DNA of 49,911 nt from Noviherbaspirillum soli (GTDB lineage Bacteria; Pseudomonadota; Gammaproteobacteria; Burkholderiales; Burkholderiaceae_D), in assembly GCF_015352955.1 (NCBI RefSeq), contig NZ_JACYOX010000039.1, forward strand, positions 1 through 49,911, read 5' to 3'. The notes under the pieces were generated by a model. That model made no database searches. It was not told where the DNA came from and worked only from the letters and a program-made list of their open reading frames with translations. Made by a program: the position numbers and the translations under genes. Positions 2,186-35,778 of this stretch are shown one piece after another. Position 1 is the first letter of the stretch. Each line of letters begins with the position of its first letter.

Positions 2186-2247
2186 AAAAAAAACCCGCTG
2201 ACCACGTCAGCGGGTAAATCCATCCTTTGAGAGGCTGGAGGAGACAG
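2186..2247 (-). ncRNA. Anti-Shine-Dalgarno small RNA, copy A (about 61 nt)
   Basis: Read on the minus strand, the predicted transcript starts CUGUCUCCUCCAGCC near 2247. A perfect 10-bp terminator stem follows (ACCCGCTGAC 2193-2202 / GTCAGCGGGT 2206-2215, loop CAC) and then eight U. The CUCCUCC stretch mimics the 3' tail of 16S rRNA and could pair with Shine-Dalgarno sequences. There is no ORF. The RNA at 35123-35186 has the same start sequence, the same promoter-to-start distance and the same layout, so the two are paralogous. From memory it resembles the Rfam family called Betaproteobacteria toxic small RNA; that match is not tested here. Confidence 0.75.
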
Positions 2248-2252
2248 GAAGA

Positions 2253-2282
2253 ACTATAAGCAATTTCCTACGCTAAACGAAA
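2253..2282 (-). promoter_or_regulatory. Sigma70-type promoter of small RNA copy A
   Basis: On the minus strand TTTCGT (2277-2282) and TATAGT (2253-2258) are separated by 18 nt. The predicted start is 6 nt downstream at the CUGUCUCC 5' end. The second copy has the same 18-nt spacing and the same 6-nt distance. Confidence 0.65.
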
Positions 2283-2559
2283 TTCCCTGTTTTCATACCA
2301 GTTATTCTGGCGATGAATGACTGTGGCTCAGTTACCTTCTCTCTGCCGGCGCTTTATGCTGTTGCCTTGTGGCTGCCTTTCGGCGATTTCAGTAAAGCTA
2401 CGGCGCAAAAATAAGATGTCTTTCCGAACTGCACGCCGTATTCGATTTTTCGGGCGCATGCATACACTGCGCTCAGGAGTCGGTATCATCGCGGTTCCTG
2501 CGCCTTGCTTCAGCGTGCCGGACGGCCAGCGCGGTTTTTCAATCCACAAATCCAGGACC

Positions 2560-33493: not shown

Positions 33494-33793
33494 TCAGGCG
33501 AGCTTCGCTGCCCGGTTCTCCAGCGTGACGTCGGCATCGGGGTAAGCCACGCAGGGCAGTATGTAGCCTTCGCGCTTTTCGTCAGCGGACAGGCCGGGCC
33601 ACTCGATGCGGTAATGCACGCGGCCCGCGGTCATCTGGCAGATGCAGGCGCGGCAGGTGCCGTTGCGGCAGGAACTCGGCAGCCTGATGCCGGCCGCCTC
33701 GGCCGAGCGCAGCAATGGCTGGCTGTCGGCGGCATCGAAGCGCCAGCCATGCGGACTGATGGTCACCGCGAACGTCCTTTCGTCGTCTGCCAT
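33494..33793 (-). CDS. Plant-type [2Fe-2S] ferredoxin
   Basis: A 99-residue ferredoxin. Cys42, Cys47, Cys50 and Cys81 follow the C-x4-C-x2-C-x30-C pattern of plant-type [2Fe-2S] clusters (SSCRNGTCRAC, then LPCVAYP). An extra Cys52 is present. The start overlaps the flavoprotein stop by one base (TGATG), so translation is coupled and the ferredoxin is probably a redox partner of that flavoprotein. Confidence 0.93.
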   Translation of the reverse strand: MADDERTFAVTISPHGWRFDAADSQPLLRSAEAAGIRLPSSCRNGTCRACICQMTAGRVHYRIEWPGLSADEKREGYILPCVAYPDADVTLENRAAKLA

Positions 33794-35046
33794 CACGCAC
33801 CCCTTTCCGCCAGCCAGCGCAGCATGCCCTGCGCCGCGCTCCTGCCGCTGGCCATGCAGGCTGTCAGCAGATAGCCGCCGGTGGGGGCTTCCCAGTCCAG
33901 CATTTCCCCGGCACAGAACACGCCCGGCAGGCAACGCAGCATCAGCCTCTCGTCCAGCGCTTCAAAGCACACCCCGCCGGCGCTGCTGATGGCTTCATCG
34001 ATGGGCCGTGTCGCAACCAGCCGCAATGGCAGCGACTTGATTGCCGACGCCACCTGGCGCATGTCGTTCATCTGTTCCCGGTCCAGCACCTCACGCAGCA
34101 GGCCCGCCTTGACGCCGGTCACGCCGGCCCGGCTTTGCAGGTGGCTGGCCAGCGAGCGCGAGCCGCGCGGATGCTGCAGTTCGGACGTCAGCCGCTCCAG
34201 GCTTTTGCCGGGCGCCAGATCCAGGCGCAGCAGCGCGCTGCCCTCTGCGATCAAGGCGTCGCGCAGCGGCGCCGACAGGGCATAGACCAGGCTGCCTTCC
34301 ACGCCGCTTTCGGTGATCACGAATTCACCGGGCCGTGTCAGCGTGGCGCCATCGGCAAGCAGGCATGTCGCCGTGACCGACTTGACCGGCTGCCCGGCGA
34401 AACGCTCGCGGAAATGGTCGCTCCAGCGCACGTCGAAACCGCAGTTGGCAGGCAGCAGCGGCGCCACCTCGACGCCCGCAGCCTGCAGCCAGGGCAGCCA
34501 GGCGCCATCCGACCCCAGCCGCTTCCAGCTGGCCCCGCCCAGCGCAAGCAGCGTCGCGCCGGCACGTACCCGTATCTCGCCATCGGCGGTGGCAAAGCGC
34601 AGTGCGCGGTCTTCCCAGCCCAGCCAGCGATGCCGCATATGGAAGCGAACGCCGGCCGCACGCAAGCGGTGCAGCCAGGCGCGCAATAAAGGTGCAGCCT
34701 TCATTTCCGTGGGGAAGACCCGGCCGGATGTGCCGACGAAGGTATCGACGCCCAGACCATGCGACCAGGCGCGCAATGCATCGGCGTCGAAGCCGGCCAG
34801 AAGCGGCGCTACTTGCATCTGGCGGCTGCCATAGCGGCCCAGAAAACGCTCCGCCGGCTCGGAATGGGTCAGGTTCAGCCCGCCGCGGCCGGCCAGCAGG
34901 AATTTGCGGCCTACCGATGGCATGGCGTCGTAGAGATCGACCTCGACGCCGGCCGCTGCCAGCGTTTCGGCCGCCATCAGGCCAGCCGGCCCGCCGCCGA
35001 TGATGACGACCCGCCTGGGCGCGTCGCCGTAATGACTGTCTTGCAC
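33793..35046 (-). CDS. HI0933/YhiN-family flavoprotein
   Basis: A 417-residue FAD-dependent oxidoreductase. The dinucleotide-binding motif VVIIGGGPAGLMAAETLA is at 13-30. GRGGLNLTHSE near 54, LALGGASWKRLGSDGAWLP near 170 and the C-terminal GVCFEALDERLMLRCLPGVFCAGEMLDWEAPTGGYLLTACMASGR match the family (TIGR03862-like subgroup). The reaction is unknown; a distant relative, BaiN, reduces bile acid intermediates. It is upstream of and coupled to the ferredoxin gene. The small RNA copy B lies just upstream of it, on the same strand. Confidence 0.9.
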   Translation of the reverse strand: MQDSHYGDAPRRVVIIGGGPAGLMAAETLAAAGVEVDLYDAMPSVGRKFLLAGRGGLNLTHSEPAERFLGRYGSRQMQVAPLLAGFDADALRAWSHGLGVDTFVGTSGRVFPTEMKAAPLLRAWLHRLRAAGVRFHMRHRWLGWEDRALRFATADGEIRVRAGATLLALGGASWKRLGSDGAWLPWLQAAGVEVAPLLPANCGFDVRWSDHFRERFAGQPVKSVTATCLLADGATLTRPGEFVITESGVEGSLVYALSAPLRDALIAEGSALLRLDLAPGKSLERLTSELQHPRGSRSLASHLQSRAGVTGVKAGLLREVLDREQMNDMRQVASAIKSLPLRLVATRPIDEAISSAGGVCFEALDERLMLRCLPGVFCAGEMLDWEAPTGGYLLTACMASGRSAAQGMLRWLAERGA

Positions 35047-35122: not shown

Positions 35123-35186
35123 AAAAAAAAGCCCGCTCTGGGAGCGGGCTGAATCTATATCAAATGAGGAGACATAGAGGAGACAG
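35123..35186 (-). ncRNA. Anti-Shine-Dalgarno small RNA, copy B (about 64 nt)
   Basis: On the minus strand the predicted transcript begins CUGUCUCCUC and repeats GUCUCCUC 10 nt later, giving two anti-Shine-Dalgarno elements. It ends in a terminator stem AGCCCGCTC (35130-35138) / GAGCGGGCT (35142-35150) with loop TGG and eight U. The layout, promoter spacing and 5' sequence match copy A at 2186-2247; the terminator stems differ in sequence, so the copies are diverged rather than recent duplicates. No ORF. Confidence 0.75.
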
Positions 35187-35191
35187 AACGA

Positions 35192-35221
35192 AGTATAGAA
35201 AGCCTGCGTCCTGTCCGCCAA
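35192..35221 (-). promoter_or_regulatory. Sigma70-type promoter of small RNA copy B
   Basis: On the minus strand TTGGCG (35216-35221) and TATACT (35192-35197) are 18 nt apart, and the CUGUCUCC start lies 6 nt beyond the -10 box, exactly as for copy A. Confidence 0.65.
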
Positions 35222-35274
35222 TTCCGATTTGCGATATCAGTTATGTTGCCGCTGAATACTGTGCGCTGCTTGCA

Positions 35275-35778
35275 TTACGCCGCGCGGCGCCGGCCGCGCT
35301 TGGGCGCGAGCATGGTCTGGCGGCAGTTCGGCTGGCCGCACAGGCACTGGTAGGCGCGCTTCACCGCTGGCGTATGCCGGCCTTCCAGCACCAGGCCGTA
35401 GTCATAGTTCAGTTCCTCGCCGCGCTGGATGTCGCGCAGGGTGTAGATGAAGATGCGGTTGTTTTCCTCGCGTGCCTCGCAGTTAGGCGCGCAGCTGTGG
35501 TTGATCCAGCGGACATCGTTGCCGCCGCTGGCGCCATCGATCATCTTGCCATTGCCGAGGGCGAAGAAAAACGTGTGGTAAGGATTGTCGGGGTCCAGCC
35601 CGGTGCGCTTCTCCGCCTCCTTCTCGGTGATGATTTCACCAATGTATTCCGACACCAGCTTGCCGGCAGGGATCTTGCGTCTTGCGAATACGCCGTTGCC
35701 ATGGATCTTGGAATGGCGCACGACGATGGAGGGTATCGGTTCCGGGACAGGCACGGCGGCGGGCTTGGATCGGGTCAT
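35275..35778 (-). CDS. SET-domain protein lysine methyltransferase
   Basis: A 167-residue protein consisting almost only of a SET domain with a post-SET motif. GNGVFA at 27-32, RWINHSCAPNC at 90-100 (SAM and knot region) and GEELNYDYG at 120-128 with the catalytic Tyr are intact. CLCGQPNCR at 145-153 gives the post-SET zinc cysteines together with Cys100. It should methylate lysine with S-adenosylmethionine; the target is unknown. Bacterial SET proteins modify ribosomal, histone-like or host proteins. The C-terminus is Arg-rich. Confidence 0.9.
   Translation of the reverse strand: MTRSKPAAVPVPEPIPSIVVRHSKIHGNGVFARRKIPAGKLVSEYIGEIITEKEAEKRTGLDPDNPYHTFFFALGNGKMIDGASGGNDVRWINHSCAPNCEAREENNRIFIYTLRDIQRGEELNYDYGLVLEGRHTPAVKRAYQCLCGQPNCRQTMLAPKRGRRRAA

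Follow-up and report, generated by a model that had tools for sequence, protein, structure and literature searches.

Within the window, i.e. the whole analysed stretch of 49,911 nucleotides from Noviherbaspirillum soli, two small RNA genes are found on the minus strand, here called copies A and B (Table 1). Copy B is flanked by a SET-domain protein gene (PF00856) and a TIGR03862 flavoprotein gene (flanking genes at 35275-35778 and 33793-35046), all three being on the minus strand. Reading 3' of the predicted -10 hexamer TATACT one finds 5 nt, a C (35186), TGTCTCCTC (35185-35177) and a second TGTCTCCTC (35174-35166), and the gene closes with a terminator consisting of a stem and eight T, the end being at 35123. 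Both the doubled tract and the eight-U terminator had been described in an earlier, sequence-only reading of this DNA, and both are present. Copy A repeats this geometry (an 18-nt spacer, TATAGT at 2258-2253, 5 nt, CTGTCTCCTC at 2247-2238 and eight T), and copies A and B account for the two exact CTGTCTCCTC sites in the window. The common 18-nt promoter spacer noted earlier can be read directly in both sequences; the distance between the -10 hexamer and the tract is indeed equal in A and B, but it measures 5 nt from the hexamer to CUGUCUCCUC and not the 6 nt given earlier, a value that applies to UGUCUCC. Copy B is predicted to form two hairpins (z = -6.64); tract 1 stays unpaired, and tract 2 falls within the loop of the first hairpin.

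Table 1. Features of the two small RNA genes and their upstream regions (window positions)
Feature	Position	Strand	Basis or detail
Copy B small RNA (RF02278)	35123..35186	-	cmscan 73.0 bits, cut-off 50; fold
Copy B parts			5' tract; first hairpin, its loop bearing the second tract; terminator hairpin; eight U
Copy B anti-SD tract 1, UGUCUCCUC	35177..35185	-	predicted unpaired up to UGUCUCC (fold, sequence)
Copy B anti-SD tract 2, UGUCUCCUC	35166..35174	-	CUCCUC predicted in loop 1 (fold, sequence)
Copy B predicted promoter	35192..35221	-	TATACT 35197-35192, weak TTGGCG 35221-35216, 18-nt spacer
Copy B upstream box, candidate LysR-type regulator site	35218..35264	-	model R1, E 1.3e-6 (training member)
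Copy B box arms	ATTCA 35257-35253, ATAACTGATAT 35244-35234, AATT 35223-35220	-	
Copy A small RNA (RF02278), part of second tract missing	2186..2247	-	cmscan 2186-2246, 50.7 bits
Copy A upstream box	2280..2326	-	model R1, E 1.3e-5 (training member)
Copy A box arms	ATTCA 2318-2314, ATAACTGGTAT 2305-2295, AATT 2284-2281	-	

Copy B belongs to a known sRNA family, namely RF02278 ('Betaproteobacteria toxic sRNA'). In a cmscan search of the whole window both copy B (73.0 bits, E = 6e-13) and copy A (50.7 bits, E = 2.4e-7) reached the gathering score of 50 bits, and copy B displays the structural characteristics of the family, i.e. two hairpins, a free 5' CU tract, a CU tract in loop 1 and a U-run. 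The Rfam consensus carries CUCCUC twice, once in loop 1 and once at the 5' end, which makes the double tract a feature of the family; alignment to RF02278 leaves copy A without an intact second tract. Since both anti-SD tracts are part of the consensus, copy B is a typical copy and copy A the diverged one, the reverse of the earlier view in which B had diverged. Nor is the RNA a new one, for expression and growth effects of RF02278 members have been published for Burkholderia cenocepacia (PMC5688073). Other families scored below their cut-offs for copy B and were rejected: RF02837 anti-hemB (25.8 against 49.5 bits; 23.6 for copy A), RF02877 NmsRb (23.9 against 52) and the Trp leader (31.9 against 41).

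The genome of N. soli contains 11 RF02278 matches, 7 of them above the family cut-off, and a twelfth copy, missed in that search, is located in a 3'UTR. The sequence-only reading had proposed a multicopy family of anti-SD small RNAs and had named a genome with only these two matches as the outcome that would speak against it; the family is thus multicopy as proposed. All 11 matches start with [UC]GUCUCC, and copy B is the only one among them in which GUCUCCUC occurs twice within the first 40 nt. At a larger scale, matches were recovered from 48 of 60 genomes (own included) and from 188 of 300 genomes of the order. Copy number ranges from 0 to 21 per genome within the window's family (own genome plus 35 relatives), the counts for relatives being lower bounds in both surveys because of stricter filters, and amounts to at most six, mostly one or two, among the counts listed for genomes outside that family in the 300-genome survey. 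Three to five copies have been reported for Burkholderia (PMC5688073) and four for Herbaspirillum seropedicae (PMC7011215). Some copies are clustered: three stand in tandem with a 185-bp spacing (G017:C1 961093-961529), five over-cut-off copies lie within 15 kb (G008:C113 125971-140862), and in N. soli two matches are arranged tail-to-tail, 150 bp apart (L002/L009, G000:C7 21384-21659), with a further hairpin containing CAGGAGACAG between them.

The tract has the same sense as the 16S anti-SD sequence and is therefore expected to pair with mRNA rather than with 16S. Genes preceded by complementary ribosome-binding sites (RBSs) were collected from the own genome: the pattern GAGGAGACA-N2-9-ATG occurs at 20 sites and its AAGGAGACA form at 25 (reversed control 0 in both cases), the AAGGAGATA form at 4 (reversed control 0) and the AAGGAGAAA form at 17 (reversed control 2). 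The AAGGAGACA form was rejected as a negative control because it contains the same 8-nt seed complement, so that AAGGAGATA and AAGGAGAAA were taken instead. As a broader label, 'uptake or catabolism', would have had to be assigned partly by eye, only receptors and permeases recognizable by Pfam name (TctC, Peripla_BP_6, NMT1_3, SBP_bac_5, DctP, Lactate_perm) were counted. Such organic-solute receptors and permeases make up 16 of the 45 AGGAGACA-RBS genes and 0 of the 18 controls (Fisher 0.003), where L105, L115, L116, L268 and L279 were not scanned against Pfam and count as non-receptors, control L287 is likewise unscanned, and 3 of the 21 control sites were omitted for having no ORF over 10 aa. 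The enrichment may partly reflect the RBS habits of uptake genes. TctC-type receptors by themselves represent 9 of the 45 genes with [AG]AGGAGACA-N2-9-ATG and none of the 18 with AAGGAGATA or AAGGAGAAA. For eight hand-picked partners, predicted duplexes with copy B reach -15.8 to -25.0 kcal/mol for six AGGAGACA genes as compared to -11.5 and -12.4 for two controls; the values for copy A are -13.3 to -26.8 versus -10.6 and -10.2.

This putative target pattern agrees with the published targets of NcS27 (PMC10987360) and S17 (PMC11722255), and the work described on these relatives points to pairing with the ribosome-binding sites of metabolic mRNAs. A dose-dependent general brake on translation, exerted by an RNA that acts on ribosomes, as the sequence-only reading had suggested with ribosome association as its check, would suit the many copies with an anti-SD tract and a family that was named for its toxicity in E. 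coli (PMC5688073). It is nevertheless most improbable, given that the tract corresponds in sense to the 16S anti-SD and is complementary to the Shine-Dalgarno sequence of mRNAs, that the effects described are gene-selective (PMC10987360, PMC11722255), and that overexpression of S17S in E. coli is described as hardly toxic, leaving exponential growth unimpaired (PMC11722255).

The most informative element shared by copies A and B is one that the sequence-only reading lacks, namely a conserved box of ~45 bp that precedes 6 of the 11 own copies at a fixed distance from the -10 hexamer (the boxless ones being L006, L008, L009, L010 and L011). In an alignment of the upstream regions of 71 sRNA copies (the 11 own ones plus 60 from relatives), ATAWCNGATATNNNNAANNGNAATT was found with at most four mismatches in 43, in all of them except L081 at position -58 or -59 relative to [UC]GUCUCC. 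The left arm ATTCA lies outside this selection pattern and is nevertheless strongly conserved over the 42 rows with a full flank (L060 was dropped for its short flank): A in 42/42, T in 42/42 and the following positions in 34/42, 32/42 and 35/42, with a mean information of 0.06 bits further upstream. Judged by eye, the six boxed own copies have 22 nt between the end of AATT and the -10 hexamer. Between the own genome and G003, ungapped comparison of five ortholog pairs gave 79-98% identity for the box, 55-90% for the spacer and 18-39% for the DNA further upstream.

A search model (R1) was built from 38 of the sRNA upstream regions, with L068, L072, L096 and L097 (half of the eight rows with four mismatches) omitted, and was run against four genomes of the genus. 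Its own-genome matches at E<=0.001 were six sRNA promoters, all training members, and one other site (G000:C22:52374-52415), situated between a divergent LysR-type regulator (LTTR) gene and a small-protein gene; the same arrangement of LTTR gene, box and small-protein gene is present in G002 and G003. These LTTR-adjacent sites are external to the training set, which held sRNA upstreams alone. A weight-matrix scan of the window ranked copies B (45.5) and A (42.9), both training members, far above the next-best site (3.3), and the untrained LTTR-adjacent site of the own genome scored 42.2. Left-arm conservation, the R1 search and the weight-matrix scores together argue against the box being a chance or compositional match. 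A scan of named genomes with the exact pattern matched N. pedocola alone, probably because GGAATT was fixed in that pattern.

With R1 at E<=0.01, matches were obtained in 30 of the 60 genomes (own included), that is in 29 of the window's family and in G042, which contributed the one weak match (E 0.0095) among the 24 other-family genomes searched. A match to the LTTR (at least 67% identity) is present in the own genome and in 29 of the 35 family relatives. Box and regulator go together: the box is present in 29 of 30 genomes counted as LTTR-positive and in 0 of 6 without the LTTR (Fisher 3.6e-6, ignoring shared ancestry), and the sRNA counts are 2-21 with the LTTR versus 0-1 without (Mann-Whitney 1.4e-4, again ignoring shared ancestry). 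In 23 of these 30 genomes a box precedes the LTTR gene by 15-155 nt, where the expectation for sites placed at random in a genome of 5 Mb is 0.009 genomes with an LTTR-adjacent box; beside 11 paralogous LTTR genes no box was found. The candidate regulator (L174) carries HTH_1 (68.8 bits) and LysR_substrate (105.1 bits) domains, both above their cut-offs, and remains below the NCBIfam cut-offs for BsrA (217.2 against 480 bits) and LeuO (168.2 against 262 bits). A divergent regulator gene with its site in between is the usual arrangement for LTTRs. Their sites are commonly 50-60 bp long and extend to the -35 region (PMC8407307). Taken together, the LTTR most likely binds the box, adjacency and co-occurrence being what marks it as a candidate site.

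The box also stands upstream of other genes. The 107 family box matches comprise 57 with [CT]GTCTCC immediately downstream, 24 next to the LTTR gene and 26 others, many of which stand before small ORFs, some of these presumably corresponding to DUF3563. By eye, AATT and -10 are 22 nt apart in the small-protein promoter, as they are in the sRNA promoters. Several of the box-linked small proteins, including the LTTR-divergent one, end in a PNLAAELR-like motif; a C-terminal motif resembling PNLAAELRxLAxRD was noted in L174, L181, L216, L219, L225, L228, L239, L248 and L249. Neither of the two small proteins searched, the LTTR-divergent one among them, had a Pfam match, and for the small protein of L174, the one searched from the motif group, there was no Pfam or NCBIfam match. 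On the small-protein side of 11 of the 30 LTTR loci read (own, G002, G003, G005, G015, G017, G018, G019, G028, G030 and G033) there is a [CT]GTCTCCTC hairpin with a terminator-like end. The own instance (L182, G000:C22, near 51895) is an RF02278-like hairpin with UGUCUCCUCCUCCC after the LTTR-divergent small-protein gene, unlisted by the RF02278 search.

That the box is a structural promoter element, AT-rich and UP-like or bent, which was spread by duplication of sRNA genes and has no dedicated regulator, might be concluded from its AT-richness, its position adjoining a weak -35 region and its occurrence in the paralogs. We hold this to be highly unlikely, since the box also precedes small-protein genes that are no sRNA copies, consists of a specific dyad with fixed arms, and is missing from the six LTTR-negative genomes of the family as well as, G042 apart, from the 24 other-family genomes. 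A more serious competitor, yet still an unlikely one, is a different transcription factor that controls both the sRNAs and the small-protein genes via the box, the LTTR gene being a mere neighbour. The adjacent box faces the small-protein gene and not the LTTR, and G001 (N. pedocola) has 14 box matches while lacking this LTTR: at its locus the box, the small-protein gene and the transporter are kept, the LTTR is missing, and a 67% paralog is encoded elsewhere in the genome (G001 was counted as LTTR-positive; with the opposite assignment, one of seven LTTR-negative genomes has boxes). Furthermore, 7 of the 30 LTTR-positive genomes lack a significant box beside the LTTR gene; weaker sites exist in four of them (G032 20.8, G017 16.4, G007 13.9 and G020 10.3), and the weight-matrix scan gave no adjacent site of any strength in G004, in G012 and, at its paralog, in G001. 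G001, the genomes without an adjacent box and the five boxless own copies thus make another factor at the box possible. What speaks against it is the co-occurrence of box and LTTR across the 36 genomes, the 0 of 11 LTTR paralogs with a box and the divergent layout that is usual for LTTRs.

The reading that we prefer, at a probability of roughly three in four, is that copy B is an independent RF02278 sRNA that blocks mRNAs with AGGAGACA, and that the box of the paralogs is most likely bound by one LTTR. Copy B would be transcribed on its own. Its two anti-SD-like tracts, UGUCUCCU at the 5' end and the one in the loop, are predicted to pair with the AGGAGACA-type RBSs of mRNAs, which would block the translation of many targets involved in the uptake or catabolism of organic substrates, a repression for which the precedent is the literature on relatives. 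In many paralogs, A and B included, the promoter has a weak -35 region that adjoins the ~45-bp box, at which we infer binding of the LTTR, activation rather than repression, and an effector; the family membership, the box, its fixed geometry, the co-occurrence and the adjacency are computed. The LTTR, with its gene divergent from a small-protein gene, its own copy of the box beside it and, in several genomes, a further such sRNA apparently following, would thereby switch the paralogous sRNAs and the small proteins as one set.

Outside the window's family a different candidate site emerges. TGCRNYGCANMA occurs in 23 of 30 upstream regions of copies from other families (L125-L151, L062, L063 and L073), against a mean of 0.14 and a maximum of 1 in 200 shuffles, and constitutes the core of YTKNTGCRNYGCANMAR, a palindrome deduced for Ralstonia eutropha PhaR (PMC12849132); a related motif has been reported for Sinorhizobium meliloti (PMC12542648). 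Among 68 upstream regions of the window's family 40 have the box only, 10 the PhaR-like site only, 3 both and 15 neither; upstream of copies A and B there is no PhaR-like site. The PhaR-like sites lie 34 to 135 nt before [UC]GUCUCC, and the far ones suggest processed precursors as in S17. It is tempting, though somewhat against the odds, to regard RF02278 as the post-transcriptional arm of a circuit for carbon storage or status, with a PhaR-controlled ancestral copy in most Burkholderiales and a capture by LysR in the window's family. In such a circuit, PHB-binding PhaR would act at TGCRNYGCANMA, the sRNA would rise with PHB and the uptake of organic substrates would be shut down; the LysR box would have spread together with the paralogous sRNAs (2-21 of them) and a group of small proteins, and one operon would combine a small protein with a 3'-UTR anti-SD sRNA in the manner of the alphaproteobacterial CcaF1-CcsR loci.

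Several described systems resemble this one in part. The RF02278 'double-hairpin RNAs' ncS03, ncS05, ncS27 and ncS62 of B. cenocepacia conform to the same sequence-structure model, with two hairpins and multiple copies, and have, like copy B, two CU-rich tracts complementary to RBSs (PMC5688073); the three to five copies in Burkholderia contrast with the 11 matches here and the up to 21 in the window's family. A common upstream motif is mentioned for three B. cenocepacia copies (Fig. S3 of PMC5688073), and the box was not seen in the three promoters (L125, L126 and L130) of the best-scoring genomes of family f31. S17 of Bordetella pertussis has the same kind of conserved 5' region, pairs at RBSs and has a small ORF upstream in its precursor; it is described as being released by RNase E from that 190-nt precursor, whereas A and B have a predicted -10 at the start of the sRNA (PMC11722255). 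The NmsR sibling sRNAs of Neisseria (PMC5362039; RF02877) are likewise paired anti-SD sRNAs on metabolic mRNAs, but are arranged in tandem and RelA-dependent, and copy B scores 23.9 against the RF02877 cut-off of 52.

The LTTR-divergent locus also resembles the CcaF1-CcsR1-4 operon of Rhodobacter sphaeroides (PMC10253847), in which a small-protein gene is followed by the sRNA(s), although that operon has a DUF1127 protein and an RpoH promoter, whereas a Pfam search found neither DUF1127 nor any other match in the LTTR-divergent small protein, which has a candidate LysR-box promoter. The candidate LTTR obtained its best NCBIfam scores, both below cut-off, with BsrA (PMC8407307) and LeuO; P. aeruginosa BsrA is described as having its strongest ChIP enrichment at a noncoding-RNA gene, and its SELEX motif as quoted there is unlike the sRNA upstream box. 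No paper that links a LysR regulator or PhaR to the RF02278 family was among the matches listed, and the main texts of PMC4603805 and PMC5688073 name neither. In the literature searched we have not come across the box, its candidate regulator, the small proteins that would be co-regulated, the PhaR-like sites or the growth in copy number that goes with the regulator.

Alphaproteobacterial CcsR-like RNAs are marked by CCUCCUCCC. What regulates the accumulation of the RF02278 sRNAs was stated as unknown in the B. cenocepacia study (PMC5688073); with a defined box, one candidate LTTR and a list of sRNAs and small-protein genes, their control becomes directly testable. Copy B is one of about a dozen copies of a known sRNA that is predicted to cover the RBSs of nutrient-uptake genes. 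Outside the window's family the PhaR-like sites would tie RF02278 to PHB storage, and within that family, if our reading is true, an enlarged group of anti-SD sRNAs answers to one regulator, and the sRNA family is expanded where that regulator is present.
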